Part shown: positions 2,393 to 33,579 of the stretch, one piece after another
How positions within the stretch are numbered: position 1 is the stretch's first letter
Layout of the letters: every line of letters begins with the position of its first letter
Assembly (NCBI RefSeq): GCF_000003815.2
Contig: NC_049988.1
Location: 12,400,372 to 12,464,371 of the forward strand
Length of the DNA stretch: 64,000 nucleotides
Source: Branchiostoma floridae
Lineage: Eukaryota > Chordata > Leptocardii > Amphioxiformes > Branchiostomatidae
Direction of reading: 5' to 3'
The notes under the pieces: generated by a model
Database searches by the model: none
What the model was told of the DNA's origin: nothing
What the model saw: the letters and a program-made list of their open reading frames with translations, nothing else
Made by a program: the position numbers and the translations under genes

Positions 2393-5326
2393 ATGGGAAA
2401 CGAGAAGAGCAAAAATACCCAAGAAGAAGTGGGTGCCACAGATGACTTCTCTGGTGTCCTCAAGTAATGGATGATGATGAGTAAGTTTTACTTTAATTTG
2501 TTCTTTGTGTACTTCCCTCAGCAAAAGTTCATCATAGTTAGTTTTGAAATGGCTTGAATCTATAAATGCTCCCCATTAATCATGCATATGCCTAACTCAG
2601 ACTTTATCTAAGTGGTAAATGAAGTGTGTAAAAAGAGGCTGTCGCAGCACTTACTTAGTTTGAAACTTCATATCATATTTGAATGACTTTTTCCCTGAAT
2701 TGGAGTTTGCAACAGCACTGTTGTCCGTTGAATTTCATCAAATGTAAATGTAAGCACAAATACTTTTTGCATGTGAGTCTGTTCTTGCCTATAGTGTTAG
2801 GGCTAGTTAATTCCATGAACAATTGAGGTATAGTTTTTGGTGTGTGTGCGAGTGTGTGTGTGCGTAAATGTTTTTTTTTTAAATATTAATTGTACTAGTA
2901 GGCAGTATAACAGTTGGATGAATTGTAATGATACACAAATATATTTGGTATATGTGTGGATAGGGGTCCAGGGAAGACATGGTCAACTTTGGACCCCCTA
3001 GTGTGTGACCTTCGTACTGCAGCAGAGCTTCTTTTTATCCTGGATGCGCTATGGTCTTGACATTTTTGCAGACATCTTTTAGTGTAAGGAAGAAGTTGTG
3101 TAGGTTTGGGCCCTCTGCTCTGAAATTGTGGGAATATTCTTGACGTTTGGTATGCTGGTAGAAGTAAAGATGGAAATGTACACAATGACAGACAGATTAT
3201 GCAAGTTAGAACTTAATAGGCACAATTAATGTGGAAAATCTGTAATTCCAGTGTTTTCCATATTAGGACTTATATACATGTAAAAATATATGACTCATGG
3301 CAGGTGAAACATTAACAGATAATGATTAAGCAAATTAGTCTAAGTTGCATAATTAATGTGAATATGCAAGAATTCCAGTGTGGTAATTGTTGTGAATTAC
3401 ATACTAACTTGTCTTGTGACCTGTGCAAGTTAATTAAAGGTGTACACCATGATGCATAGATTATGTAAGTTTGCAAGTCATTTGCACAATTTATTACAGG
3501 ATGCAAATATGGAGGTTTGCACAGGACTTCTATACAATCATCCAATACAATGTATATACATTTTGGTTAATAAGAAGACCATCATAGATAAAATAGATTA
3601 TGCTAATTACAACCTTACTTGACAATGCATACTCAAGGAGACAAATTGAATATGAAACAATAAATCTACAAAGGCTCTAAATATTTCATGAAGGTATGAG
3701 GTTTCCAAACTCTTGTTTCATTTTAGTCTTGATTTATATGTTATATGTTTAGGGTAAATTAGTGCATGTAACACCCCATCTTTTGTCAATTGCTTCACAG
3801 AGAGGCACCTCCACTAGATGTTGGTCTTCTTGAGATAAGTGAAGATGATTTGTCCCCACAACAAAGGAAGATGTTACATGAAAGAGCTGCAGATGGGGGA
3901 GGAAACATAACTGCTCAAGAAGCTCTAGACATCGCAGCTGCTAGTGAGTCAGAACCTGACAAGGTCAAGATTGGAATTGTTGGGGATGCAGGGGCAGGGA
4001 AGAGCACGTTTATCAACTCATTCCGTGGGTTGTCACCAGATGATGTGGGAGCTGCTAAAGTGTCTGCATTTGGACATGCCACAACTGAGTCAGAATCTTA
4101 TGATGTCCCTGGGAAAGCAGTAGTTCTTACTGACTTTCCTGGTGTCTTATTCAAGCCTAAGATGGAAGCCAGTAGTACAGATATCGATGGGACTGAAAAG
4201 GTTATCTTCAACACATCAAGTTACCTTGATCCCAATAAAGCAAAGATGCAAGAGTGTGACTTTTTCCTTATTTTTATGCCAAATCGGCCAGGCAACAATG
4301 TAGTCTGGATTGCAAAAGAAGTGCGCAAGATGGGGAAAAGACTTCTGTTTGTCAGATCACAAGCAGATGAAGACATTGAAAGGGCAAGGCATGACAACCC
4401 CAAAGACTTCCAACGAACATTGNNNNNNNNNNNNNNNNNNNNNNNNNNNNNNNNNNNNNNNNNNNNNNNNNNNNNNNNNNNNNNNNNNNNNNNNNNNNNN
4501 NNNNNNNNNNNNNNNNNNNNNNGTAAGGTGGATGAAGATGACATCTTCGTCCTTTGAAGACTGAAAGAACCTGTAGCCCGTGGTGACTATGACATGGGTG
4601 CCCTCCGTATAGCAATGCTCAACAGCCTTTCAACCTACAAGCAGGGTGTTCTGATAAAGAACATCCAAGACTTTTCCATGGCTACACTGATGAAGAAAGG
4701 GGAGGTGATGAGGAAAATAGTGTGGGGAGTAGCAGCTGGTGCTGCGGCAATCAGTGCTGTACCTCTTCCTGGCATAGGTGTGGCTATGGATATGGGTAAG
4801 TGGTTGTGCATTTATACCTACATGCTTGATGAAGTTATGCTGTCCAGCAAATTATCTACATAAACTTTCTATATATATTATGTCATGTAATCTATCAATA
4901 TTGACTTTGAAATTGGTGTGTTTTTTTTTTTAAACAGTGGCGGTGACTACAGCATATGTCAAAGTCCGCAAAGCTTTCAACATCGACGATGAATCTCTTG
5001 AGCAGTTGGCAAGTATTTGTAACAAATCAGCTCTGGCCTTGAAGAGGTTTCGTAACCGGAATTCAACACTATGGAGTGCTATAAAGAACAGCAGGGGTAA
5101 ACTGGCACTACGAAATCTTGCTGCTGTTGCATCATCTTCTGTCACAGTTGCTACCCTGGCCATAACAAGTGCTACAGCAAAGATAGCACTTCCAATCATC
5201 GGTGGAGTCATAGCTGCTCCAGCCTCCTTTGCCCTGATAGTGTTCCTTGTGAGAAAGTTCATTGATGAGATGGAGAAGTGTGCAACCAAACTGTTCAAGT
5301 TTGCTTTCAGCAATAATATGCTGTAA
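2393..5326 (+). CDS. IRG-like (immunity-related) GTPase, GKS type, with an in-frame TGA
   Basis: Exons: 2393-2463, 3801-4795 (interrupted by the N run 4423-4522) and 4938-5326. Splice phases agree (2, then 1). Seen: an N-terminus MGNEKSKN that fits an N-myristoylation signal; P-loop GDAGAGKS at about residues 85-92; switch-II motif DFPG at about 135-138; FLIFMPNRPGNNVVWIAKEV; a G4 position reading VRSQADED where IRGs usually have a T/NKxD motif; and a helical C-terminus with a hydrophobic Ala/Gly-rich segment (GVAAGAAAISAVPLPGIGVA). IRG proteins are dynamin-like GTPases of cell-autonomous immunity that act on membranes; membership is inferred from motif order and architecture. A TGA codon at 4555-4557 interrupts the frame between DDIFVL and RLKEPVARGD, so the copy is a nonsense allele, a pseudogene or a base error. 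A second, better donor (gtaagt at 2481) would give a different start (see findings). It precedes a related gene on the same strand. Confidence 0.75.
2839..2865. repeat. (TG)n microsatellite
   Basis: Interrupted TG dinucleotide array (tgtgtgtgcgagtgtgtgtg) in the first intron of the IRG-like gene. Confidence 0.8.
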
Positions 5327-5494
5327 GATATCTGCCTTATATAGTTTTGCACCCTAATAAGTAAAGGTGCACTCTCTCTGCACTTGCGTCAAGCNNNNNN
5401 NNNNNNNNNNNNNNNNNNNNNNNNNNNNNNNNNNNNNNNNNNNNNNNNNNNNNNNNNNNNNNNNNNNNNNNNNNNNNNNNNNNNNNNNNNNNNN
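5327..5494. other. spacer plus assembly gap hiding the 5' half of the next GTPase
   Basis: Only 68 readable bases follow the stop codon of the first IRG-like gene before 100 N (5395-5494). Sequence after the gap is already mid G-domain, so the promoter, start codon and P-loop of the next copy lie in the gap, which must be longer than its nominal 100 bases. Confidence 0.6.
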
Positions 5495-8400
5495 GATGAA
5501 GAGGCATACTTCAAGAGCTTTGGTGATGACATAAACGCATGCAGTGTGCTCTTGGTGTTCATTGCAAAGACAAGAAGCGAAGGACTTCTCACAATTGCAA
5601 GGAAGGCTAAAGAGATGGAGCTGAAAGTCTTGTTCATAAGGTACATATTGCACTTCCATGGACAAACTTTTGAATCAAAGTGTTTTTGCATTTATTTGGC
5701 CAGATTGGTCGATTGCAGATTTACATCAAAGTGATTGCATTACAAGAAAACAAAAGCTGAAGACTTGACATTTCACCTGAGTGTTATTTTGTGCAGGACA
5801 TGTCAGGATGAAGATGAACTCCAGCATACTGACAGCATCCGAAGGGTAGGACATATCTTGGAATTCTATAATGATTAAAAGGACACTTAGTCAAAAACAT
5901 TTTGCATCCATAGGTCATGCAATAGACCAAGAAATCCTGAGTTACATAATTATGAATTGTGCGTGTGTGTGTTTGATTTTTTCGTAGGAAGTCCACGAGG
6001 ACCTCAAGGCACACATTGATGATATTGACGTGACTGATATCTTCATTGTGAACACTCTGGACGACAAAATGGTTCAAGACAAATGGCACTTGGGCTCTCT
6101 CAGGGCAGCCATCCTCCATGCCATGGACCAGTTTGACATGACTGACAGGTAACATTATATGATGATATAATGATATACGCACAAAGCTATGTTTGTGAAG
6201 ATTAGTCATCCAGGATAATACAATAATTGGAGTTGAATCAGTCGATGCTACTGGATATATATAAGATTTTCATCAGATGTTTCAAACAACGTCTGCTGTT
6301 CTTCATGAGTGAATTGAAAATAAAAGTATGATTAAAATCTTATATATCGAGTAGTGTCGCCTGATTCAACTCCAATTATGCACCAAGCTGTTCACATTAC
6401 ATTTCGCCTGCTCTAAAGAATTTGCTACTCTCTGATCGATAGACAAATTCTACTACATTCTGGGAGACGATAACCCTTACTGTGTACAAGTAGGCAAATA
6501 TATCCATGAATGCTTATACTGTAGAACCAATAGTGTAAATGACAAGCTAGACCCAATATGTTGATTTATTCATAACTGTAGAAATCCATATATGCCTGTT
6601 TAGTTGTACTGTAAGTACATGTAGTTGTTATAGACCTTATGAAAGTCGCTGTACTTTTGTCGTGTCCATAAAGATTTCACAACATATCAGAATGAAAACT
6701 AAGGTAAATATTTCCATGACCTAAGTCCACATATTGATGATAACAGTAATGTGATGACAGCATTGGGCATTAGTGCTACTTCCTATTTTTTTTGTTCTTC
6801 TCAATTAACTTGTTCTCAATGTTTTGCATTCTCCCAAGTCGTCTAACGATTGCAATATACAAGCAAACTTGACAGCTGAGAAATCTTCTTTCAGAAACTT
6901 GATGCAAATGCAGATGGAAGGGATTATTGCACTGAACGAAGGCAAGAGCAGCAAACCAAGTGACCATATACTGAGGGCACTGTATGGCTGTCCAAGGACT
7001 ATCAAACCACTCTTACCAGACTGGAAGGCAGCGATCACCCCGGGTGCCAAATCATGTTCTACTTCTAATTTCAGCTCTGGGGGTTGTGTCATTGCGACAT
7101 TGAGCAAATACTAGTATATTTGCATTACTCAAGTCCAATTTCTATATATTATTAAACTTGGTCCATAAAGGCACATAATTCCATGCATCAGTTACCATGG
7201 AGTATCAAATTGGTGATACCACAAAATGTGGGCAAATTTAGTACTAGCAACAGTGTCTTGTTTATTATGGATATTGTTTTTACTCCACAAATCAACATCA
7301 AACAGCATTTTGGGGACTGAGATAAATGATTTGTTGATTAGACTGACAATCCTCAAGTTAAAAGACAAGATGATTTGATATTGCAAGACTTTAAGTGCAA
7401 TGGACAAAGTTATGGTCATACTGGAACATTATTTCTTGATGATGTGCTAAGTATATCATTCTGTAGTGTTACAGCAGCTTTGATATTCCTCATGATAATA
7501 CAAGTGGTGATAACACTTTTATACAGGGGTGATTGGCAAACCAGAAGCTGACATCAGAACATTCATCTGCTCCCTTCTTGGTCTTGATAACAACCTGCCT
7601 GAACAGACCAAGGACCCTGCCAAAGCAACAGTGTACCACAGCCCAGACCACCCCTGCAACATCTCTGTTGTACAGTTTCCCTCAGCCTCACTTACTCCTG
7701 GTAGTAAATTCTGATATACAATGTATAAGTAACACATTTACTAAACTTATATCATGGTTTTACTAACTTGCTTAGAATATGTATAATGTGTTCACACAAA
7801 AAATGTACAATGTTGAGTAATAAATGATTGTAAATCAATCAATATTCACAAGTGATTGTTGATTTAAACATTGTACATGTACTTATTTCAGTGATAGTGC
7901 AACATAAATATTTCNNNNNNNNNNNNNNNNNNNNNNNNNNNNNNNNNNNNNNNNNNNNNNNNNNNNNNNNNNNNNNNNNNNNNNNNNNNNNNNNNNNNNN
8001 NNNNNNNNNNNNNNTTTTCACTTTTTTTCTACCATAACCCAGACTGTCATGTGTAACAGTTAGTATTTGTTTGCACAATTCAGGACAACATGGATTTGTT
8101 TCCCGGTACATGGATTTCCACGGAGACAAGATGCAGGACTGTGATCTGTTCTTGGTCTTCTGCCAGGACAAAGTGACTGACGAGGCAGCTTGGGTGGCCA
8201 ACAAGGCTATGGAAATGAAGAAGAAGGTAAGTGCCTTGCTATACACATGTATTCTAAGTTGACAATCATGTACATTGCTAATCTTTGAGAATATGATTGT
8301 TAATTGTTTATTGGAACAGTAACCTAAAGACCAGCATAACAACAATTAAGAAGATAAAGTGGGCAACCTCAGACTGATGATAAATCATGATACTTTTGTT

Positions 8401-10328
8401 AGCTACACTGTAATAGTAGAGTAATTATTAGGGCTTTATTATATTTGCTTGGTATGATTTACACCAAGCACACCGGGTCATTGCTACTTTCTTGATAAAG
8501 TGTGTTGGGTCCTTTTATGTGTGGAAGTATAATTGATGCCATACACTTCCTCATACATGGGGCTACTCAGGCTTCATGTCCCCATCTGAAAGGACAATGC
8601 AACTCTTTTCCAGCCATGTCCAGTCTCGAGCAAAAACCCGGGCTTCTGTCTCCATGGAATTGGAACCAGATGTTCCGAGCATCTGTGCCAACATCTACAA
8701 AAAATGTATGCCATGGAGACACAATTACCAATTGGACTGCAATAACTAATATATGTGACAATCATCTTGTTTTCTATAGGTGCTCCTGATTGGATCAAAA
8801 TGTGACCAAACTGCTACTTTAGGGGCTGCTGCCAAGCTTCCAACTGAGGACACAGAAGACAGGGAACTCTGCAACAGGCTAACAGAGGAATTCAAAGTCT
8901 GAAACTAAACACTTCTATTTTTTTATATTTGACACATGTATGACATTTGGTGAAAAGGTTCATAACGTATTAATCTATTGACATCTGCTACCATGCTGAC
9001 ATCTTCTATTGACAGCAGTGCTATTTCACATAGATTTGGAAAAAATGTCACCAAAAAAAAAATGGTATTTGGATAATCCGAATTCAGAGAAACATGATGT
9101 CTGCACAATCATATCAGTTCTATAGTCATTTTCATACTTTCTTTCTTTAACTATCTTTCCTCCTTGTTTACAGGAACATCTGCACAAAGCAGGCAGTGAG
9201 GAGGTGATGGCTGCAAACAGCACCTTCATCATCAGTGATCAAGCTGATGATTTGCTGATGGGAAAGTTTGATGCAGCCAGGCTGAAGATAGCAATCCTGT
9301 CTCAGTTCAATGACTTGCAACAGCAGGTACAACACTTAGATTTTGCATAGTAATAGACTGTTTTTTCAGAGCTCACTGCAAGTTACGTATGATGTGGAAT
9401 AATATGTATACAGGGGTATACATAAATTTTGTAGTAGTGAGTTCATTATACATTTATTGATCATCCTAATTTCAGACTTTCTACACTTGTAGGCCTTTGT
9501 GATTTGCTGTCCGGACATGTCACCAGACTTTGTGATTGAAAAGTCAAGAGTGCTGAAGAAGATGGCATGGGTCCAGGCTGTCGATGCCATGGATGTCAAC
9601 CAGGGACCTTGCCTGTTGGTTGAAACACCAGTGAAGATAGGTGTGTGTACAAAAACTTGCTGAAATCTCTCTTACAAAGCAAAGCACAAAAATTGCAAAT
9701 TGTTGTAACCATAGGCAACCATGGCATAAAATGTATCTTCTGAGGCTTGTTCAAAAATCATAAGTGGTCACACTTAAAATCAATTTTTCACACTGGTCTG
9801 ATTATTACTATAGATGTGGATCGAAGAATCTCAGATGTAGTCATACTTGACACAAAAGACCCTTGTTGACCCTTATCTCAACATTTATGACAGTAAATGG
9901 GGCACATTTCATTCTATTAATCAAAATATCTTTCCTTTCCAGCAATGGCCAGGGAACTCTGCAAGCGGGCCCAGAAGTGTTTTGGACTTGACGAGGATTC
10001 CCTCACCAAGCTAGCAGCAATATCTGGTACAGACGTACAAGATCTGAAGATCTTTGTGCAAAGAAATCTTCCCATGTGCACAAAGTTGTTGTCAGATGAC
10101 ACAGACTGTGCCCCTCCAGATAACATCCGTACCTTAGCAAGCCTGCTGTCAAAAAACAGCAGCACTCTTCTGACCCTTGGGCTGGCAAACTGGTCATTCA
10201 CAACAACCATTCCTGTCATGGGATTTGGTGGGAAGGCACTGAATATTGTTGTCTACTTCTTGTGTAGGATGATTGACGAACAAGCAGAGTGTGCAAAGGA
10301 CCTGCACAACTTTGCATTCAACAAGTAA
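5495..10328 (+). CDS. tandem IRG-like protein: GTPase domain joined to a quasi-GTPase domain (5' partial)
   Basis: Exons: (gap) 5495-5640, 5797-5845, 5988-6148, 6895-7043, 7527-7700, 8084-8226, 8780-8896, 9174-9326, 9493-9640, 9943-10328; all junction phases agree. The first G-domain half (VLLVFIAKTRSEGLLTIARK, FIRTCQDED, then TDIFIVNTLDD) aligns with the upstream IRG-like gene, but its helical C-terminus is missing. After a linker, a second G-domain starts with VIGKPEADIRTFICSLLGL, where the P-loop GxxGxGKS has become GKPEADIR and the DxPG motif reads QFPS; yet it keeps an SKCD sequence at the G4 position. It ends in an IRG-like helical domain and TAA at 10326. Loss of P-loop residues recalls the vertebrate quasi-GTPase IRGQ. 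Donors at 7044 (gtgcca) and 8897 (gtctga) are weak. Without splicing at 7044 the frame stops at TAG 7112-7114, giving two separate genes instead. The second 100-N gap (7915-8014) could hide an exon. Confidence 0.65.
6224..6379. mobile_element. palindromic MITE in an IRG intron
   Basis: The ends are inverted repeats of about 50 bp with few mismatches: the left end begins ATTGGAGTTGAATCAG and the right end is CTGATTCAACTCCAAT. Both arms continue into a related 'ATATATAAGATTTT' block. Flanking TA dinucleotides are compatible with a Tc1/mariner-type target. There is no coding capacity. Confidence 0.7.
8440..8715 (-). mobile_element. SINE-like relic in an intron of the tandem IRG gene
   Basis: Read on the minus strand, the segment has the order 'gtcctttcagatggggac', 'gtatggcatc', 'acataaaaggaccc', 'actttatcaagaaagtagc', 'gacccggtgtgctt'. 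It resembles the conserved 3' body of tRNA-derived SINEs widespread in aquatic invertebrates. No intact box A/B head is visible, so it is probably 5'-truncated. The assignment rests on remembered consensus-like phrases, not on a search. Confidence 0.45.
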
Positions 10329-19200: not shown

Positions 19201-21404
19201 TAAAAACAACATTGCCCTGGTTCTACGGAGGGTGAGTGTTCCATATTTTACAATTTCATTCAAAATGGATTGAGCTTCTATCTGATGTGTGATTTTAATG
19301 TATTTTTCTTTCATACAGATTTTATCATAGTGGAATGGTGGTGATCCTTTCAGGACAGTCACACATTGAGAATATTAAAAAACCCACCACACTTACTGAA
19401 AAGAGCAGGGCTTTATCCCAGTGTGAGTGGATCAAATGAAACAATCTCCAAGTATAACTTCTACTAAGTACAGTACAAACCAAGGCCCGGTGTGCTATGT
19501 CATGAGGCAGATTAATGGGTATGCAATGCAAATAATAGCTTGTCTCCATATTTGACCATCTTAAACTGCTTTCCTTCTGTATGTTTGATACAGGCCAGCT
19601 TAAAGCTTTTGCCACAAGGGAAGGTGCCACAGCTCTGTGTTTGGGTGAAGCTGCTGTCATTGGATGGGAGGAATGGAAGTGTTGTCTTCAGAGATCACAC
19701 AGGTAAGTACTGTCTTCTGATGTATTTAAAAGGACTATATAGGTTTTCTATTTTTCATACATAATGTAATTATATTCATAGACGATCTGGAAGATTTGGC
19801 ACAGTCTTAAAACTTCTGGAATTTAGTGTAATAAGGAATAGATAGTGTGAACTACTAGTAAGTGCCCATTACATCAAGAAGTCAACCCTTGCAATAGCCT
19901 CTAGAATGACAGCCATGATATCTAAAATAGAATGTTAATACAATGTATTCTATTACGTAAGTGAGTTGAGTTTTCCATGACCAGGTATGATATATTTTCC
20001 CAGGTGAGATGCAGGGTACCATACACCAGAAGGTGCTGGAGGAGTACCCCTCAGACATCAAGGTTGGGACAACTCTGGTGCTCAGACAGGTACAAGACTT
20101 TGATATACAAGACTATGTTTCATAGACTAGCCTCTACCAGGCTCCATGGATCCCAGGTCAAATAGTAGAAATTGGACAAATAGAGGGAACAGTGTGCTAG
20201 GGGAGTTGGTATGCGATCCTTGGATCTTTCTACTATTTGTCCAGCGATCTGCGGAGCCTGGTAGAGGCTATTATACACAGCAACAGCCACTATTTCTAAG
20301 TAAAATGCATGTAATATCTTATGTTTTATCTTATGAAGAAATAAATACAAAGGTTAATATGGTGTAGGTAATTGGGGAAGCGGTGTTTCAACTGCAAATA
20401 AAAGGTTGCACACTGCCCTACCTGGGTTTAAATCAAGTTGCGCCAAGCAAAATGTGGTTGCACATGCCAGTGTACAAGTTGGTATTTCGAGCACTGTGAT
20501 CAATTTTTTGTATCTAGTTTCCAGGCCACCAATGTGTTACTAATTTCTACCATTATCGTCCAATCCTCAGGTTGGAGTCTTCAGTCCATCTGCCAGAAAC
20601 CACTACCTGAACATCACCCTTAACAACATCGTCCAGGTCTACCCCCCTGGGACCAAATCTGGTATAACCTCCACCCCCTCCAGCCAGGACTCACCCGAGC
20701 TGAACCTGTCCCCGGCCCCCTCCTGGCTCAAGTTTCAGGACACAAGCCCGACCTGTACAAGGGGTGTGGTTTCTCAACGAACTTCAACAACTAGGGGGGA
20801 CACACAGAACACAAGACAACATGTGCAACAAGTACCATTGAGCAGTGCAGTGGTACAGAATACAACTACTGTGGGGATCGGTGACACACAGAAGACAAGA
20901 CAACATGTGCAACAGTCACTGTTGAGTAGTGCATTGGGACAGAATACAGCACAGGTATCCAACGTGGTGGCTTCTGGAGCTACTGGCAATCCTACAAACA
21001 CTGGATCTGATGGCGGCAAGCAGCAGCAAAATGTGGATGAGCTTTGGGGTGAAGGTGAGTATAGATAGCTGTGGCTACCTCGATATCTCATTTTGTTTAG
21101 GTTTTGTATAACAAAGGCCTCCTTGGTATAACAAACGAGAGCTGAAGTTTTATATAAGCTTGGTTATTTGTGTATTTAGATACCAGACTACTATAAATGG
21201 TACTATCTCTGCAACCCTACCTCTGCTTGGAGAATAAATGCTGCTAATATTTTAACCTTGCATGAAGTGGTACATTTGTACATGTAATAAAGGGTGTTGA
21301 ATCTCATCTTAGGATGTAAGTTAAAATGTGTTTTTTTTTCTATTTCAGACAATCTGGATGAGCTTCTAGAGGACATAGGAGAGGAAATGTTTGGAGACTT
21401 CTGA
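16234..21404 (+). CDS. hrob: HROB (C17orf53/MCM8IP) homologue, homologous-recombination OB-fold protein
   Basis: Nine exons with agreeing phases: 16234-16293, 16404-17987, 18413-18562, 18827-18913, 19094-19231, 19594-19702, 20004-20089, 20571-21054, 21349-21404; about 917 aa. The start AAGATGG has a good context. Exon 1 encodes MAGQGSLFSIGDDDLDLGDE, an acidic N-terminus like that of HROB. Exon 2 (528 codons) is Ser/Asn/Thr/Gln-rich, probably disordered, with an acidic patch (FLGSFDDDFGDDN) and a run of QTPR-type repeats near its end. The conserved part follows: KKRKFPGPAGILPKL at about 584-598, then an OB-fold at about 660-775 (LCVWVKLLSLDGRNGSVVFR; VGVFSPSARNHYLNITLNNI). A C-terminal acidic tail reads LDELLEDIGEEMFGDF. 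HROB promotes recombination by recruiting the MCM8-MCM9 helicase, and MCM8IP also contacts RPA; these functions are family knowledge. The protein is longer than the human one (about 650 aa), mostly in exon 2. Confidence 0.9.
20128..20270. mobile_element. palindromic MITE, 'TAGCCTCTACCAGGC' family, copy 1
   Basis: Terminal inverted repeats TAGCCTCTACCAGGCTCC and GGAGCCTGGTAGAGGCTA match over 18 bp. A second inner inverted pair contains 'aaatagtagaaa'. It lies in HROB intron 7. Related copies are at 39936-40113 and 41097-42225. Confidence 0.85.
20788..20960 (+). repeat. coding tandem duplication in HROB exon 8
   Basis: Two copies of a roughly 30-residue unit GDTQ(N/K)TRQHVQQ..LSSA..QNT lie back to back just before the acidic C-terminus. 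Conservation at DNA level (for example 'caagacaacatgtgcaacaa' and 'caagacaacatgtgcaacag') indicates a recent duplication. Confidence 0.8.
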
Positions 21405-22718: not shown

Positions 22719-25700
22719 CTACAACTCTTCTTTTGCCATTCCTAGAGAAACGGTCGCATGTTCCTCTAGGAATTTCACGAACCCATCTAAATCTCTATTC
22801 CCATCAAACTTCATTGGATTCTTTTTATCGTTTTTCTTTGCAAAGTAAATGGTAGGGAACCCCTGTACTTCAAAGGCATCGACCGGTACGTCATTTGCCG
22901 TGGCGTCCATCTTTGCAATGACCAGATCTTTTGAGTTTTTGTATTTCTTTCCGAGTTCCTTGTAAGCGGGCTCGAGTTTCTTGCAGTGGCCGCACCAAGG
23001 AGCGTAAAACTCGATCAGGACATCTTTGGACTTGTCCATGACGACTTTTTCGAAGTTCTTGCCGACCACAGTGGTGACGGCACCTTGCTTCTTGGGGACG
23101 GGTTGAGATTTGATTACAGGTTTCACCTCACCTAAAAAAAAGAAGACACTTTTTAATAGAATAAAAAGCATTAAAGACAGCAGAGAGGGGAATAGATAAG
23201 CAACAAAGATATTGGTGGAGGTTCAATCACTAAATGGAGTCTCCTAGCCATTAGTAAAGCTTTGCTCAAGGAAAAGTAGAAGCTGGAAAATATAGATCTA
23301 ATTCACAATTCCTTGTAAAAGTGGCATTCAAAACCTCTACATAGAAAAAGAGACACTGCACCATACAGGGTTCTAGCCTGCATCTGTCCTTTGACAGGAT
23401 TTTGATGTTGGGGACGGACATGTTGATTAAACCAAGCTGAGTCTACCAGCAAAATTTGCCCCACAAAATAAAGGAAATAGCGTTCCAGAGAGTCTAGAGT
23501 TCAAAATTTTCCTGAGGGAGCATGCCCCAGACCCCTTTGGACAGTCATACCCCTTGACTTTTTTTTTGCCATTCAAAATCCAGGGACAAAAAAAATTCAG
23601 GCTGGCTACAACACTGGCACTACATACGCTTTACTTATCTATTTCTGTCATTACACATTTTTACACTGACCATTTTTGAAAGCCTCCACAAACTCCCTCA
23701 GCACATCTTCACTGAACTCGTCCGGCTCCATGCGGTACTTCTTGTTCTTGTCGTAGATCCCGACATTGACCTCCTCTCCGCTGTCGTCCAGCTCCAGCTC
23801 CTTCAGCTTGCTCTGGTGATGGTCCTCCTTAGCGATGGCGAAGGTCAGGTCACGGTGGTCCTTAGCAACCTCCAGGACCTTCCGCCTCCAGATCTGAGTA
23901 GCTGGGGTGGAGGATAACACTTGTGTCAAATCTCTCACTAGCTTGGTAATAAATAAATCAGGTCTGTGTATAAAGAAAAAAAGTTCCTGGTATCACAGGC
24001 ACAATAGCTTGCATTAGGGGTGGGTACCGGTATGGTGTACCATTACAAAACTGTTTTTTCTTGATGGAGTGGTCCAGAAAAATGGAAAATGAATAGATTA
24101 TACTGGCAGGTGTTTACGTGTTTTGGGGCTTACAGGTCCAAGAAAATAAGAGTGAAGTAGAGGAGAGTTGATAGTCATTCTTATCAAGTTACTACAGTCA
24201 AACTTGATCTAAAACAGAGGCAGTTATTAGTGTTGTATACAGTCACACGTGTTCACAGACCTGGACCTGATCTTCTGGACCTAGATCTAGACCGTACCTG
24301 AATTTTCTGTATCGGTACCCACCCCAACTGTGCATGTATCAAATCTATTAACTAATTTGACAACTAAATCAAGACTTACCTTCTTTGTACTCAAAGCTGA
24401 AGTCCACATCGTAGAAAACCACCACCAGTGGCCGAGCCTCCCCGTACCGCCTGTTCTCATTCAGAGTGGTCAGTTCTCCCACCAGTGGCCGGATGTTGTC
24501 CTTGTACCAGTCCTGGAGATCCTGAACTGTGGCATCAGCCTGAGATGTACATAGATAATACAGTGTGAAAAATATTACATCTCTTACACTGGACTACTCT
24601 ATTCGATTTCAAAAGAATGAAAGGATTTAACCTAGTACATATATCAGACCACTGTCACGGTACATATATTTTCTACAATCAACAGAAGATACAAAAGCAT
24701 GGCCCTTACCAAAGTCATCTCAAGCATGTCAAGAACATTTTTTCAGGGAGAAACCAGATACTGTAAATGTTCAAAAATTTGCAATTGCTTAATGTTCGCT
24801 GTTTTAGCGATAACTTCTTAAGAGCGAATGTCTGTAAGGGTCAAACAATGGTGGCAGGGGTCAAAAAATAGATTTGGCTCGTAATTTGCACAGTGATAGT
24901 ACTTGGTACACAACCCCTCAAAATAGCTTTCTTTCTGCTCAGAACCTCTCGTTGCCATGGCAACAGGCCAAAGAAGTTTATGGGCCATTGTTCCAGATTT
25001 TGGCATGTAAAAAACATGAAAATTGGCCAACTTTAGGGAACTAATACTGATCAATGCTTTAACTTACAAACAAAAGCAGAATGTCCTGATTAGAGCAATG
25101 CCTGAACTTGCATTAAATAGCAGTAGAGTTAATATTCTGTAAAATCTATGGTCACGGGCAACCTGAATGCAATACACTGTTTTCACGTTATGAAAAAACT
25201 GAAATTTTGCCCAAATTTGAAGCACTGAAAGTCCGTAAGTGTAAAGATTTTTCGCTTGCAATTCACACCAAATAATAACCCACTAAAGAGCTATTAGATG
25301 AATGCTTGCAAAGTTTGGGTTCTTGTTTTGTTGCTACGCTGTTGTTGTTGGCATCCGTCTGTCTCGGAAGACAATGGTAGGCGGACGGGTTTAAGGCGAC
25401 CCGTCTGCCTGGCCTGCACTTGGGTTTTTAAGGTGAAGGAGGGGTGTGCACATCCTTCTCCACCCTCTCGTCCACTGGCGCACTAGTCCTACAGGGGCAA
25501 CTGTATGCAACGTGTAAGACGGCCCCAGCAGATGCAGGTTTGTTATTTGGAGTTTCCGTCTCCTAGGAGGATTTCCGACCAAGGATGCAAGGGGTTCCTC
25601 CTACCCCTGACTCATGTGTCATGGCGGGTGCGTCATGCCCGAACATGCCCCTATGGCCTGTCGCCACCACAAAGGCCTGTCACTGCCACTAGCCGCAGCT

Positions 25701-28700
25701 ATGTACTCATTTACACCTGAGTTAGGTGAGGAAAGTCGTGTAAAGTGCCTTTCCCAAGGGCACAAGATCGGTGACACGGCAAGCGGATTTGAACCCCGGA
25801 CCTCTCGGGCCTGAGACCAACGCGCTCCCGATCGTGCCACGCGGTCCCACACGGGGACGCAATTATCCTTTAAAGTGGGTCAATTTTCATGATTTTGAGA
25901 AAATGTCATTTTTTGCTATCTTTGAACTACTGTAAGTTCTAAACCAAACTTGTTCTGTTATTGGAATTTATTTGGAAGATAAACCAATATATTGTCTATC
26001 AAATGCATGCTTGTAAAGTTTGTGTTCATGTTTTGTTGCTACGCAACTGTCCTTTAAAGTGGGTCAATTTTCATGATTTTGATAATATGTAATTTTTGCC
26101 ATTTTTGCACAATCATAACTTCCAAACCAAATTTGTTCTGTTATTGAAACTTACATCAAATATGAACCAATATATTGTCTATGAAAGTCATGCTTATTAA
26201 AGTTGTCTTCTTATTTCGTTGCTCCGTAATTGTCCTTTAAAGTAGGTCAATTTTTATAATTTTGACAAAATGTCATTTTGTGCCATCTTTGAACTATTGT
26301 AAGTTCTAAACCAAACTTGTTCTGTTATTGGAATTTATTTTAAGAATAAACCAATATATTGTCTATTAAATGCATACTTGTAAAGTTTGCGTTCTTGATT
26401 TGTTGCTATGCAATTGTCCTTTAAAGTCAGTTTTCATGATTCTGATAATATGTCATTTTGTGCCATTTTTGCGCAATCATAACTTCCAAACCAAACTTGT
26501 TATGTTATTGGAATTTACTTGGAATGTAAAGCAATATATTGTTTATCAAAGGCACGCATGTAAAGTTTGGGTACTTGTTTTGTTGGTACACATTTTCCCT
26601 TTGAAGTGGGCTGATTTTCATGACTTTGATGATATGTCATTTTTGCTTTATTTGAACTATCATAAAGTCTAAACCAAAATTGTTGTGTAATTGAAATAAC
26701 CAATATATTGTTTATCAGATATATGCTTATATTTGAGTTCTTGTTTTGTTGATACACAATTGTCCTTTAAACTAGTTCAATTTTCGTGACTTTGATAGTT
26801 ATTTTGTGCTATATTTGCACAGTGATAAATTCCAAACCAAACTTGTTCTGTAACGGAAATTTGCTTGAAATATAAACCAATACATTGTCTATCAAATGCA
26901 TGACTATGCACAGTTGGGGTTCTTGTATTCTAGCAGAATACGTACATGTCCCCATAAGTAGGTCGTTTTTCGCACTTATCCTAAAACTTGTTTTTGACAT
27001 TGGCGATACACCAGACATGGTAGTCTTCATTTTTATAGAATTAATGTAACACTAACAATGTGTAACCACACTAAAGAAAAACAAACATTTAAAGGGATTC
27101 TACACAGTCATGCTCGTTGTTAAAGTCAGATGCATCTACTCTGAACTTCTGAACATTCTACTAGATTTGCAGTTGAACCTCCTTGTCTACAGTGACTTAA
27201 GTTAAACATGCTTGCGTCCCCACAAATATTGACTCCCGAAGACTTAACTTGTGTTTTTCATCAAACTCTGTGCATCTTTCCACTTACAGTGCCATGTTCA
27301 TGTGAACAATATGTACACCCTCTGCTATTTCTGTGTACTTATTTTGACCATGGACAGGAACTTATAGGTAATCTTGAAGATTGAACTGTGAGCCCTGAAA
27401 TGTGAACACTTTTATGTAGATGTGTCGTCAATAATCACTGCCGGTGTATAGTCAGCATTTGTGGAAAAACCTTAAGATTATCCAAGTTCCTGCCATTGTT
27501 CAAAATGAATACTGGCCACAGACATTGCAGAAGTTGACCAAACGCATGTTTGTCTTATATGTATGCTACTGTGAATAGAAAGACACACTGATATTGGTGA
27601 TATTTGTTCAAAGTAGAAACAAGTTAAGTCTTTGAGAGTCAATATTGTGGGAAGCAAACATAAGACTGTAGACTGTAGTCATCATACACGAGTATACATA
27701 GCGTGAGTAGCTGCAGAGATATCAGAATGTTTGGAAGTTCTGAGTGGATGCATCTGACACACCCTCCTATGTAGGGCTAATCCCGCGGCATACGCAAAAG
27801 CCTTACGGTATCAGTGAGACATTTGTTTGTGCCACTGGATTATGATTTATCCCTGCATGAAAGAGGGGATGAGGGACATTGAAGACGAGTATTACTTTGT
27901 GTAGAATCTCTGCAACTTTTTTTTCTTTATGGCGATAGCGTGTTTGTTACATTGTTTCTATAAAAAAACAAAGACTGTGACATGTGTATTACAGTAACTG
28001 TTTTTTTTTCAACAACAAGATTAGTGGAATACGACCTACTTCAGATATGTGCATACTCTGCTAGAATACAAGAACCTGAAATGTGCAAGCATGCGTCTGA
28101 TGGACAATATATTGGTTTATATTCCATGTGAATTTCAATTACAGAACAAGTTTGGTTTGGAAGTTATGATTGTGCAAAGATGGCACAAAATGACATATTA
28201 TCAAAATCATGAACATTGACCCACTTTAAAGGACAATTGCGTAGCAACAAAACAAGAACACAAACTTTACAAGCATGCATTTGATAGACAATATATTGGT
28301 TTATCTTTCAAATAAATTCCAATAACAGAACAAGTTTGGTTTGGAACGTACAATAGTTCAAAGATAGCAAAAAATGACATTTTCTCAAAATCATGAAAAT
28401 TGACCTACTTTAAAGGACAATTGCGTAGCAACAAAACATGAACGCAAACTTTACAAGCATGCATTTGATAGACAATATATTGGTTTATCTTTCAAATAAA
28501 TTCCAATAACAGAACAAGTTTGGTTTAGAACTTACAGTAGTTCAAAGATAGCAAAAAATGACATTTTCTCAAAATCATGAAAATTGACCCACTTTAAAGG
28601 ATAATTGCGTAGCAACAAAATAAGAACCCAAACTTTGCAAGCATTCATCTAATAGCTCTTTAGTGGGTTATTATTTGGTGTGAATTGCAAGCGAAAAATC

Positions 28701-31700
28701 TTTACACTTACGGACTTTCAGTGCTTCAAATTTGGGCAAAATTTCAGTTTTTTCACAACGTGAAAACAGTGTATTGCATTCAGGTTGCCCGTGACCATAG
28801 ATTTTACAGAATATTAACTCTACTGCTATTTAATGCAAGTTCAGGCATTGCTCTAATCAGGACATTCTGCTTTTGTTTGTAAGTTAAAGCATTGATCAGT
28901 ATTAGTGCCCTAAAGTTGGCCAATTTTCATGTTTTTTACATGCCAAAATCTGGAAAAATGGCCCATAAACTTCTTTGGCCTGCTACCATAGCAACGAGAG
29001 GTTCTGAGCAGAAAGAAAGCTATTTTGAGGGGTTGTGTACCAAGTACTATCACTGTGCAAAATATGAGCCAAATCTATTTTTTGACCCCTGCCACCATTG
29101 TTTGACCCTTACAGACATTCGCTCTTAAAGTTAAACCACAGCAAAGATGCTGGTCCCCTTGTTTCAAATAAAAATTCAAAACCCTCCCTTCTGCAAAATT
29201 AAATGCAAACAAACTTAAAGGTACCTACAGTAGTTAACTGTCATCTAAAAGAAGACAGCCGTTCTCCACACACCTTGTCAAAGATCCTGATTTTAGGCTC
29301 GTACTTGGACTGGAACTTCTCTGGCTGTATGATGGCGACTGATCCAGGGTTGACCTTGTAGAAGGCTCGGGTCTCTGCGTCAAACGTGTGGCCAAACTCG
29401 TAGGCTTCTCGCAAATCATTACCTGTTAGAAGGGTAGATATTAGTATTTAAAGCAGCATTGGTAAGTGCCAAGTGCTGGCAAGTGGTAAGTGCCAAGTGC
29501 TGACCATGATGCTCTGTATGTCATGTACATGGACACTACAGTCATAGATAATGGTAACAGGTCACTACCAGAAATTTTCTAATGCCAGTAGATCATTCAA
29601 AGCTGTTTCTTGAAGAAATATCAATTATGAGATGACAATATGAACTCAGCTTTCTGATGGAAAGACACAGCATTGACATCAGGGCTGTCTCCGGTACCAC
29701 CCAATGTTTGGGAGCCAACTGAATGTTGTTGATTTTCCTGGTTAAATATGTCATTTCAAGCTTATGAAAGTACATTTTCAACAGTTTCATGTTACTTTTG
29801 GGACAGATTGGTTAAAATTATTTTCCATCCCAACAAGAAAATCTCAGGATGGAAGGATGGGTCCTGAAGACAGTCCTTATTAAGACATTAACTTGTACCT
29901 GAGTCCAGGTAGGTTTTGAAGAGTGGATCCTGGTCGTTTTCAAAGAAGCCCACGATGACAGCATCAGTCGTGACAAAGTTTTTCAGTGCCTTTAGATTCT
30001 TGTACTCTTCTGAACTGGGCCCTGATTGGTCGATCATGTGAGAGATGATACCTGGAACATGAAGATATGGATATCAATCATCCATTCATTATTCAAACTT
30101 GTGATTTGTTAAGATACATCTATCAGACTATCACTTTGAACTGGACAATTGTGCTCCAGAGTTGATAAACCAGATAGTGAGTTGGTGTGTCTGAAATGAT
30201 ATTTTCAGTTCAAATATATGTTCGCCAATAGTGAAGGCTCCAATGAAACAGGATTCATTTCATTTCAGTAACTATAGCTAATTGCAATGCAGAAGGAATT
30301 ACATTCAAGGCCGGGCCTTACAACTTCTATGTAATTTATATGATATACATTGATACAAAATGCACTCTGTATTTGAACACTTCAGTTCCTACCTCTCTCC
30401 TCTCTAGGCCCCTTGTAATCATATGCCTGCCCCTTCCTGAAGATTTTAAGGGTGGGGTATCCTGACACGTCAAACCGTTTCCCCAAATCAGTCTCTTGGG
30501 TTGCGTCCACCTTGCCAAGGAGGATGGGAGGGTCTTGGTCCTTCAGAAACTGGGCAGCTTTCTCAAACTCGGGTGCCAGCTTCTTACAGTGGCCACACCT
30601 GTAGTTGAGACATCAGGTACAGTTAAGACTTGCATGTCTTTTAATGCGTCACAAAGGATCTTATAGGTACATAAATAAAGCTATAGACTCAACAGGCATC
30701 CTTGACATATTTCATTCAGGAAAAAGGTATATAAACTATGATCATATCTTGTTGTCAGTCTGTAAGACTTGTCAAAATACCCCAACAATACCATCATCAG
30801 ATACAAGTACAACAAATAAATTGATGCATGTTTAAGAAATAGTATGCCCAACACAAAACAAATATCCCTATGCAATTACATGCAGTCTTTGTGTTTGACA
30901 TGTACAACAAACACAATGTATTGTTGAACATTCTGTCCATAGCAGCATAACTACCAGAATTATAATTCAAGAAATCTCTTACAATTTGGTTTCTATTGTA
31001 CTTACCATGGTGCATAGAACTCCACCAAAGTGATGGCATTTTCATTAACAAACTCATCAAAGTTCTCCTCTGTCAGAGTGACCACAGCTTCAGGTGGAGG
31101 TTCCCAGTTAGGGTCAGACTGTTCCTTCATGTAGTCTACAATACCTGGTGGGGTACAGTTGATTATAAGTACAATGTATCATGGTGTCACGGTTGAATAA
31201 ATTTTATTTCACTGTCATTTTTCCTAAACAAAAAGTACCCGACCAAGAACTACAAGTTATTTAAGTCTATATACATAATTTTTTTTGGCGGTTTGGTAAA
31301 TGACTTGATACCACATCACAGATCACAACAAAAAAAACAATGACCCTACTAAGTATACAGATACTGAACAGGGCTGAGTCCTATCACGTTCACCAAGTAA
31401 GTTGCTATATCCATTCAAAGTCTAGCTGTCATGAGGCAAGTGTTATGAGTAGGCATAGCCATGATGTTTCAAATAGCAATGATAAAAACACAAAAATTGC
31501 CTCAAATTATAGAATAAATCTTTTAAAATCAATTCATAAAGGACAAATGATAGTTGTATAGTTTAAACATTGATATACAACTGTAAGTACCTTTTTCTTG
31601 CCTGGGCCCATCATAGTCGAATGCTTCCCCTTTCCTGAAAATCTTGAGTGTGGGGTAGCCAGAGATAGAGAACCGACTGCCCAGTCCTGTATGTACTGTA

Positions 31701-33579
31701 GCATCCACCTTAGCCAGAGGCACCGGGGGGTCAGCTGCCTTCAGGGTCTGAGCTGCTTTCTCATACTCAGGGGCGAGACTCTTACAGTGACCACACCTAG
31801 GGATCGAAAGAACATGATTAAAGGATCAGCTCATGAAAAAATTGATATACATGTATATGTACATGTATGTACAAATCCTAGGACATCCTAGGTTGCTGTG
31901 ATAAAGTTGTGACACTCATAAGACATGCAACTTCGTCTATAATAACATTTACTGATTTTAGTTCCGAGAAAGAGAAAAAAAAGCATTTCACTACATGAAA
32001 TTTTGGATCCCAATGAAATCCCTATGGTTGGTATTCAATGAAGCACTTAAACCCCAAATTTCAAATGCAGGTAACATGTTTTTTGCCCAAATATGTCTAA
32101 TATCTTCTATTTTCAAGCTAAGATAAGTGTTGAACATTGGAGGAACACTCTGTGTATGACTTTTTCAAATATGCAACAATCTACTCACCAGGGTGCATAG
32201 AACTCCACCAAGATGATGTCTTTGTCAGGCACGACATCGTCAAAGTTTTCATCTGTCAGAACCAGAACCCCATTGTCTTCTTCCACGTCAACATCATCAT
32301 CTTCATCATCAACCTCCTCTCCATCATACTCCACTCCCTCATCCTCTGTCTCTTCTGGTACTTCAGCTTTCTCCTCTGTAATAAAGGATAGAAGTGCAGC
32401 ATAAAACATACTGTCTGAGTGTTTCTATGACTGTGTGTGAATGAAACAAATGACCTACGATAGGGAGGTAAGTAATGTATCGTCTTTGTCAACTGCTAAG
32501 TACAATGTAACACCACCATCCCCTTTCACCTACCATTTAAGAGGTTAGTTTGATTACATTGTATTAGTACTAGTACATACAGAATTTTTAAAGACCTAAT
32601 TTCGTACTATGTAACATAGTACAAAATAAGGTCTTTGAAAATTACGGGAAGAATACTACCTTACAAGGAGGTCAAGAAATAGAAGTCCTCTAGTACTAGT
32701 AGATTTGTAGAAAAGAAAAGAAGAATGACTGCATACTAAACCAGTATTTCATCAAAAGTGTGTAAAACATTATAACCCTATGATTAACTTCATTAAGTTG
32801 GTTTTCATGATACAAAATGGAATTATTTCCAAAGCGTTGAACCATTTTTAACAATCAAATGGGAATGAATTATACTGAAATGTTGACATCAAAATCGGCT
32901 GATATAACTTCAATGTCATTCAGAATCCTGGACATGGTGCTCACAAAAGGCACCTCCCAGAAATGGTTACATGGAGTGCTCTGATTGGTCCAACTCAGCA
33001 ACACATTCTTAGGGTTTGTTTTGCTATCAAACTCTGGTATCCGACTATCCACATGCTCTAACTGATCACCCCAAACTACGTTGTCTTTCTTCGATTTATG
33101 CACATGAAAATGTTCAAAATGAGCGTTTATGATATAAATATGCCCACTGCTTAACACAAAATGTAAGATAAATTTGACATGTATACTTGTTGCCCCTCCC
33201 CTTTTGGCCTTACCTCTAAAAGCCCAGTGGTAGTTTTGCCCTTCATTGTGCGTATCACTTTATATCATGGGCATAATTTTACAGTCCTAGACTATTGATA
33301 CAATAAATCCTGGTACTCGATAGTAATTTTGGAAACAATAAAAAAGCGTATTCGTTCTGTCCTTGGTTCTGACTCTAGCATGTTGCACACACGATTTAAG
33401 GTATCAAGATAGTTTTTAAACACATTCTACTGAACGGTTTCCAATAAAATTTACTACGTATACGCATGATATCATTGCCTACCTTGTGCCTCGTCTTCTG
33501 CTCTAACATGTACCCCATTTAGGAGTAATAAGACGAAAATCAGGCCGAAGACACGGGGAAACTTGAACGTTACCGCCAT
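22719..33579 (-). CDS. pdia4: ERp72 / protein disulfide-isomerase A4
   Basis: Ten exons, all phases consistent: 33483-33579, 32189-32375, 31591-31796, 31006-31144, 30393-30598, 29899-30051, 29274-29422, 24380-24539, 23671-23901, 22719-23131. They give 646 aa, about the length of human ERp72. Order: signal peptide ([20 protein letters not shown], cleavage likely after VRA); an acidic Glu/Asp segment (residues ~35-70); thioredoxin domains a0 (WCGHC, cysteines 96 and 99) and a (211 and 214); redox-inactive b and b' domains; and a' (556 and 559). It ends in KEEL, an ER-retrieval signal. The protein forms, breaks and rearranges disulfides in the ER lumen with three CxxC active sites. The start CAAGATGGCGG has a strong context. 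Exon 9 uses a less common donor (gtcagt). An ER-stress-type element lies upstream. Confidence 0.95.
23366..23616. mobile_element. hAT-like MITE, copy A
   Basis: Left end CAGGGTTCTAGCCTGCATC, right end GGCTGGCTACAACACTG; these form imperfect inverted repeats with hAT-style CAG...CTG termini. The flanking octamers (gcaccata / gcactaca) agree only partly. The interior closely matches the copy at 44834-45137. It lies in the PDIA4 intron between exons 9 and 10. Confidence 0.65.
25340..25856 (-). mobile_element. tRNA-derived SINE inserted in the left arm of the palindrome
   Basis: On the minus strand, box A (TGGCACGATCGGGAGC, 25824-25839) and box B (GGTTCAAATCC, 25785-25795) have tRNA spacing. A body of about 400 bp and a 3' tail of CAACAACAACAG follow. 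The flanking ACGC (25336-25339 and 25857-25860) may be a short target duplication. The right arm of the palindrome is uninterrupted at the same place, so the insertion postdates formation of the arms. Confidence 0.85.
25861..26965. repeat. left-arm tandem repeats, period about 180 bp
   Basis: Units marked by variants of 'cctttaaagtgggtcaattt' recur at about 25868, 26051, 26231, 26416, 26589, 26763 and 26945. Each unit also carries 'aaccaaacttgttctgt' and 'accaatatattgtctat'. Divergence rises toward the centre of the element. Confidence 0.85.
28028..28640. repeat. right-arm tandem repeats, inverted, period about 183 bp
   Basis: The complementary unit ('acctactttaaaggacaatt') recurs at about 28220, 28405 and 28588, with a degenerate start near 28030. 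There are roughly half as many units as in the left arm. Confidence 0.85.

Follow-up and report, generated by a model that had tools for sequence, protein, structure and literature searches.

Does a lancelet gene encode an IRG-family GTPase fused to a quasi-GTPase? The question is raised by positions 5495-10328 of a Branchiostoma floridae window (the whole stretch analysed, 64,000 nucleotides; C10:12400372-12464371 of an assembly of 513,431,437 bases in 431 contigs). A sequence-only reading described this segment as one transcript of ten exons, in which a tail-less IRG GTPase domain is joined to a degenerate G-domain with a helical tail. Comparison with two paralogues in the same genome makes it highly probable that the segment covers roughly the 3' half of a larger, three-unit gene encoding ~1100 amino acids. 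With similar assurance, the units would follow in the order canonical IRG (G-domain and helical tail), tail-less quasi-G-domain (Q1), linker, second quasi-G-domain (Q2), second helical tail. The GTPase-type unit of this gene is most likely the upstream IRG at 2393-5322, whereas both units of 5495-10328 most likely look like quasi-GTPases. Below, the paralogues are called A and B, and the window copy W.

The array and its copies

The Pfam family IIGP has 12 matches in the assembly, and the same array was found at two of the fetched loci. Copy A resides on the window's own contig (L010-L011), starting ~13.2 kb and ending ~5.7 kb ahead of window position 1. It comprises 12 exons; its 11 introns are all of the GT-AG type and keep phase, and its unbroken frame of 1097 amino acids spans a full canonical IRG (motifs GEAGAGKS, DFPG and SKID), Q1, the linker, Q2 and the second helical tail. 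The contig C276, which is unplaced, carries copy B (L015, L019), for which 11 exons, exon 1 aside, give one frame of 1069 amino acids, with one GC donor. In both copies the last IRG exon is 385 bp long, ends in phase 2 and is spliced into Q1, which opens with PAYIGILGKECSGRREF in copy A and PAYIGILGKECSNRTEF in copy B. The window is most likely a third copy of the array, with the first half of Q1 hidden in a gap. Its exons and gaps are as follows.

2393..2463, + strand: first exon of the gene as a whole, where the canonical IRG starts (MGNEKSK...), in-phase GT-AG join to 3801
3801..4795, + strand: exon 2, canonical IRG G-domain and first part of the helical tail; contains an N gap, 4423-4522
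4555..4557, + strand: TGA in frame within exon 2, starting 33 bases beyond the N gap; either a nonsense mutation or an error of the assembly
4938..5322, + strand: exon 3, remaining IRG helical tail, phase 2 end at donor CT/gtaaga; 385 bp and phase 2 in 3/3 copies
5395..5494, + strand: N gap, where copies A and B would put the P-loop half of Q1
5495..5640, + strand: Q1 exon, second part, the remainder in the gap; 51% identity to the copy A exon (residues 1-49)
5797..5845, + strand: Q1 exon, TCQD at the G4 place; fused with the next exon in copies A and B
5988..6148, + strand: Q1 exon, end of the G-domain
6895..7043, + strand: linker exon between Q1 and Q2, donor 7043; position and phases match copies A and B
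7527..7700, + strand: Q2 exon, degenerate P-loop GKPEADIR and QFPS
8084..8226, + strand: Q2 exon
8780..8896, + strand: Q2 exon, SKCD retained at the G4 place; weak donor, whose score is reached by 41.2% of the GTs in the window
9174..9326, + strand: Q2 exon, end of the G-domain; 153 bp in 3/3 copies
9493..9640, + strand: helical tail exon; 148 bp in 3/3 copies
9943..10328, + strand: last exon, helical tail and stop codon TAA

The upstream IRG was assigned to the same gene because copies A and B join the units, and by the same comparison the ten-exon set is incomplete as a whole transcript. The IRG begins with MGNEKSK, presumably an N-myristoylation-like motif. Its region 3772-4422 matches IIGP at 5.8e-20, and exon 2 carries GDAGAGKS and DFPG, with SQAD at the G4 place (4357-4368) where copies A and B have SKID. 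The apparent stop codon of the upstream IRG, TAA 5324-5326, overlaps the donor at 5322, which scores 4.74; when donors were ranked against all 3972 GTs in the window, 8.7% were equal or better.

Part of the sequence-only reading of 5495-10328 was reproduced. The ten exons have GT-AG borders, agreeing phases and a single open frame of 554 amino acids, and the second unit has GKPEADIR in place of the P-loop and QFPS in place of DxPG. The helical tail is present on unit 2 and absent from unit 1: in the interval 6149-7526, between Q1 and Q2, no remnants of a helical domain exceeded shuffled sequences (best score 31, mean shuffled best 34.3).

The assignment of unit 1 as a GTPase is most likely wrong. 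The label has no basis in the window, because the P-loop and G3 would fall into the gap 5395-5494: only the second half of the G-domain is visible, from after G3, and the G4 place reads TCQD rather than TKxD. The paralogues both show unit 1 with a broken P-loop (GKECSGRR in A, GKECSNRT in B), altered G3 (EFPS and GFPS, respectively) and no TKxD motif. In Q2 of the paralogues, the P-loop place is DNGAGTNT or DHGAGTNT and G3 is RFPA. A fusion among IRG-type G-domains, a pseudo-GTPase included, gained support, and the junction of unit 1 with unit 2 recurs in both paralogues, but the description of 5495-10328 as a GTPase plus a quasi-GTPase most likely does not hold.

The linker exon, the least secure of the set, was also revised. 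It had been ended at donor 7082, which scores -0.31, a value reached by 46.7% of the 3972 GTs, whereas the paralogues indicate 7043. With 7043 in place of 7082, the junction reads LPDWKAAITP/G in the window, to be compared with LPKWEQATIRI/G in copy A, and 13 residues are dropped. In-phase donors 6959 and 7043 both score above 7082, although an equally good donor occurs in 41% of 2000 simulated sequences. The codon score of the linker, computed for the longer version 6896-7081, is 0.013 bits per codon, lower than in the 8 other exons tested (0.07-0.43); among 1827 overlapping stop-free windows of equal length, 3.1% score at least as high. The linker showed no similarity to the window's own units, and its reading as a diverged part of an IRG was dropped. 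The linker of copy A finds that of copy B at the matching place; the placement of the window linker relied solely on its order, phase and alignment.

For the IRGs on contigs C1, C4, C13 and C5, no Q1, linker or Q2 exons were found in the fetched stretches beyond their own G-domain and tail matches (tblastn, E<=0.01); the downstream flanks compared there were as short as 2.7 kb, and weak matches on C9 and C14 were outside the comparison. An N run of ~5.5 kb (L011:4530-10000) separates copy A from the window, and one guess is that the contig carrying copy B belongs near it. Near the end of that contig a partial last helical exon was found in reverse orientation (L019:6190-6393, minus strand; 75% identical to copy A). 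This piece may come from a fourth array.

Kinship, descent and selection of the units

The joined protein of the window matches IIGP at 7.4e-13 (residues 245-465) and mouse IRGB10 at 5.9e-10 (residues 183-466), in both cases inside unit 2. Without its tail the unit 2 G-domain gives 0.035, under the Pfam cut-off, and unit 1 with the linker has no IIGP match. In copy A, IIGP matches the IRG unit at 1e-34 and Q2 with its tail at 4.3e-22. Profile comparison by hhalign, with profiles built from few and related sequences, aligned Q1 (A, B and the window half) with five canonical lancelet G-domains over 180 columns at 99.7%, and Q2 with canonical IRG G-domains over 195 columns at 99.9%. Exon 7527-7700 was compared with IRGB10, and none of 1000 shuffles scored as high.

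The combination of G-domain and helical tail that characterizes the IRG family is found in the gene; Q1 is a G-domain alone. The IRG units of copies A and B carry GKS, DFPG and SKID, and the window IRG retains GKS and DFPG. Q1 of copies A and B lacks GKS, DxPG and a TKxD-type G4, whereas Q2 in all three copies lacks GKS and DxPG and retains SKxD. A radically modified nucleotide-binding site, the mark of quasi-IRGs in Bekpen et al. 2005, is therefore seen in Q1 of A and B and in Q2 of A, B and the window. The array differs from mouse-type tandems, in which a short linker joins two full-length IRG units under one promoter, as tails are present on the IRG unit and Q2 and absent from Q1.

In the tree of 14 G-domains, Q1 (99/98) and Q2 (100/99) each form a group across A, B and the window. 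Both groups persist when Q1_W or Q2_W is left out. The tree program flagged long branches for Q1_W, Q2_W and IRGB10. Most simply, the three-unit order would predate the three copies.

Ratios of non-synonymous to synonymous substitution rates (dN/dS) were estimated by the Nei-Gojobori method. Between A and B the G-domains give 0.14 (IRG), 0.16 (Q1) and 0.27 (Q2), the tails 0.17 (IRG) and 0.31 (Q2), and the linker 0.41. Between A and the window, which share 24-47% identity by domain, the ratios are 0.33 for Q1, 0.75 for the linker, 0.23 for the Q2 G-domain and 0.25 for the Q2 tail, with dS of 1.3-2.7; the IRG comparison is saturated. By these estimates, Q1 and Q2 are under purifying selection between A and B. 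The A-B dS is ~1.4 for the IRG and Q1, near saturation, and ~0.6 for Q2, as if gene conversion had homogenised Q2.

A number of observations weigh against a three-unit gene of IRG descent. Q1 alone matches no Pfam family, and unit 1 with the linker has no match among solved structures (PDB) up to E 10. The Q1 profile has three weak PDB matches, two of them to an IRG at 0.27-0.31, and the kinship of Q1 rests on comparison within this genome. For exon 7527-7700 against the window's own IRG, 103 of 1000 shuffles scored as high. The IRG units of the three copies are weakly grouped (67/89), with 52-57% bootstrap when Q1_W or Q2_W is left out, and dS is near saturation for the IRG, Q1 and window comparisons. 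In the window, the join of IRG to Q1 runs into the N gap, the IRG unit has an in-frame TGA, and the donor of exon 8780-8896 is weak. Finally, the gene is known here from genomic sequence alone.

Integrity of the window copy and number of genes

One possibility, at less than even chances but not a negligible one, is that the window copy is a decaying pseudogene, its protein unmade even if A and B are functional. The in-frame TGA at 4555-4557 and the weak donors would agree with decay, as would the wholly different P-loop place of the window Q2 and the long branches of Q1_W and Q2_W. Moreover, a decayed relic resembling the last exon of the window gene is present on the contig of copy B (L019:3989-4451). 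However, the 554 codons from 5495 are free of stops, and the A-window ratios given above, 0.23-0.33 outside the linker at dS of 1.3-2.7, speak for constraint. The TGA is only 33 bases from a gap, in a region prone to sequence error.

The relic is 90% identical to the window last exon over 50 columns and 81% over 187 columns, and is interrupted by an inverted-repeat element of that contig, C276, whose inverted ends are 49 nt long. The end sequence of this element recurs in the 34 bases that directly precede the window gap at 5395. An inverted repeat with 39-nt arms, resembling a short transposable element, occupies window positions 6223-6379, within the intron that separates Q1 from the linker exon.

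It is rather unlikely that the units belong to two or three tandem genes, with the IRG made alone by a stop codon in retained intron 3, and Q1-Q2 or Q2 expressed from a promoter of its own; alternative ends could also yield an IRG-only as well as a fused product. Retention of intron 3 would bring an immediate stop in the window and, as judged by eye, a stop within a few codons in copy A. Downstream of unit 1 there are TAG 7112 and ATTAAA 7151, and the window has ATG 7197 in good context with an in-phase donor at 7227; among 2000 simulated introns, 5.9% contain one as good. ATGs in frame precede the first Q1 exon and the first Q2 exon in copy A; none is present at either place in copy B, nor upstream of Q2 in the window. 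The alternative named in the sequence-only reading, namely an end at TAG 7112 and a new start before 7527, is weakened: nothing in copy A corresponds to the window's single candidate for a start exon, that with ATG 7197, and copy B offers three ATGs of poorer context, with one shared donor, at a different place. A separate start of Q2 at ATG 7197 was rejected, as it is not conserved in copy A. Joins in matching phase and an exon 3 of 385 bp are retained despite the low identity between A and the window. The comparison of starts across the copies thus favours a single transcript.

Elsewhere in the window, positions 20544-21065 (plus strand) match HROB at 3.4e-8. Exons of thioredoxin domains at 22722-31825 (minus strand) form a gene ending in KEEL, which we take to be PDIA4-like. 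No RNA family reached its gathering threshold in the window.

Possible roles and relation to known systems

If the array is one gene, the two dead G-domains may regulate the single GTPase in cis. This proposal, in which "dead" is a reading of the motifs, is tentative, at somewhat under even chances; it follows the kind of role proposed for separate or fused quasi-IRGs in vertebrates. The sole nucleotide-binding G-domain would drive GTP-dependent assembly on membranes, as is known for IRGs. Q1 and Q2, tethered at a fixed ratio, would be built-in partners occupying the dimer faces of the IRG, and their occupancy would set the timing of its oligomerisation. According to the part of the 2005 survey available to us, IRGs accumulate and assemble in a GTP-dependent manner at parasite vacuoles, and a regulator role was proposed for the quasi unit, fused as in zebrafish irgg-irgq1 or separate (PMC1297648). 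Together, the three-unit gene and the cis-regulator role form the explanation that we slightly favour overall.

Two other roles are improbable, and about equally so. The dead G-domains could be decoys that bait pathogen effectors which bind or phosphorylate IRG G-domains, thereby shielding the active unit. We know of no lancelet parasite with such effectors. In mouse, the tandem protein Irgb2-b1 binds ROP5B of Toxoplasma and protects Irga6, as stated in the available part of PMC6420625, and dead domains kept under constraint would fit a bait. However, the whole-domain dN/dS values (0.16 for Q1, 0.27 for Q2) give no sign of positive selection such as reported for Irgb2.

Alternatively, Q1-Q2 could be an IRGQ-like adaptor that docks Atg8-family or other cargo and is joined to a membrane-acting IRG. 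The accessible text of PMC13172515 describes human IRGQ, with its N-terminal G-domain, as an autophagy receptor; this domain (construct 1-189) binds GABARAPL2 via an LC3-interacting region (LIR) and the switch region. In addition, ~420 residues of IRGQ are colinear with IRGs in the available account of PMC1297648. Read together, these descriptions would give IRGQ the order of a G-domain followed by an IRG-like part, as in Q1-Q2. On the other hand, the same account gives the N-terminal extension of IRGQ as ~100 residues, a poor fit to the G-domain-first order. No LIR-like motif [DEST][WFY]xx[LIV] was found in the window protein as originally spliced, the copy that was scanned, and no IRGQ chain is among the matches of the Q1 and Q2 profiles at E<=10, in a PDB copy that was not checked for the presence of this chain.

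The gene would place quasi-IRGs, as built-in dead partners, outside the vertebrates. One GTPase-type domain and two dead ones kept in three diverged copies would make the regulation proposed for quasi-IRGs testable.

By its title, the study of Li et al. 2009 (Mol Biol Evol 26:1619) is said to place interferon-inducible GTPases in cephalochordates. No prior description of a lancelet IRG fused to quasi units was found, as judged from titles and the openings of abstracts, with the subscription literature mostly uncovered. The 2005 survey, in the part available, reports no unambiguous IRG outside vertebrates (PMC1297648). The fusion of an IRG with a quasi-GTPase is, as a kind, already known since the zebrafish work of 2005; within the literature searched, the three-domain form outside vertebrates looks new.

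The nearest known system is zebrafish irgg-irgq1 (Bekpen et al. 2005, PMC1297648), which, in the portion of that paper at hand, likewise unites an IRG and a quasi-GTPase with a modified GTP-binding site in one transcript. There, a C-terminally truncated GTPase is followed by one similarly truncated quasi unit, whereas the lancelet gene has a full IRG, two quasi-G-domains and a second helical tail. IRGQ of human and mouse and zebrafish irgq1-3 are likewise derived from IRGs and have lost the GTP-binding motifs. However, IRGQ of these two mammals is a gene of its own, in close linkage with IRGC but unfused, in contrast to lancelet Q1 and Q2, which appear to be fused to an IRG. One could speculate, though we consider it unlikely, that an IRG effector carrying two dead G-domains, tethered within a single polypeptide, arose before or outside vertebrates; the vertebrate neighbours IRGC and IRGQ, as well as zebrafish irgg-irgq1, could then be split remnants, and quasi-IRGs would have begun as covalent regulators of IRGs. 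Mouse Irgb2-b1 and Irgb5-b4 also have several IRG units per polypeptide (PMC1297648, PMC6420625, as far as the available parts of these papers describe them). The mouse tandems consist of two full-length units, whereas in the lancelet gene a full unit is followed by two quasi units, the first without a tail and the second with one.

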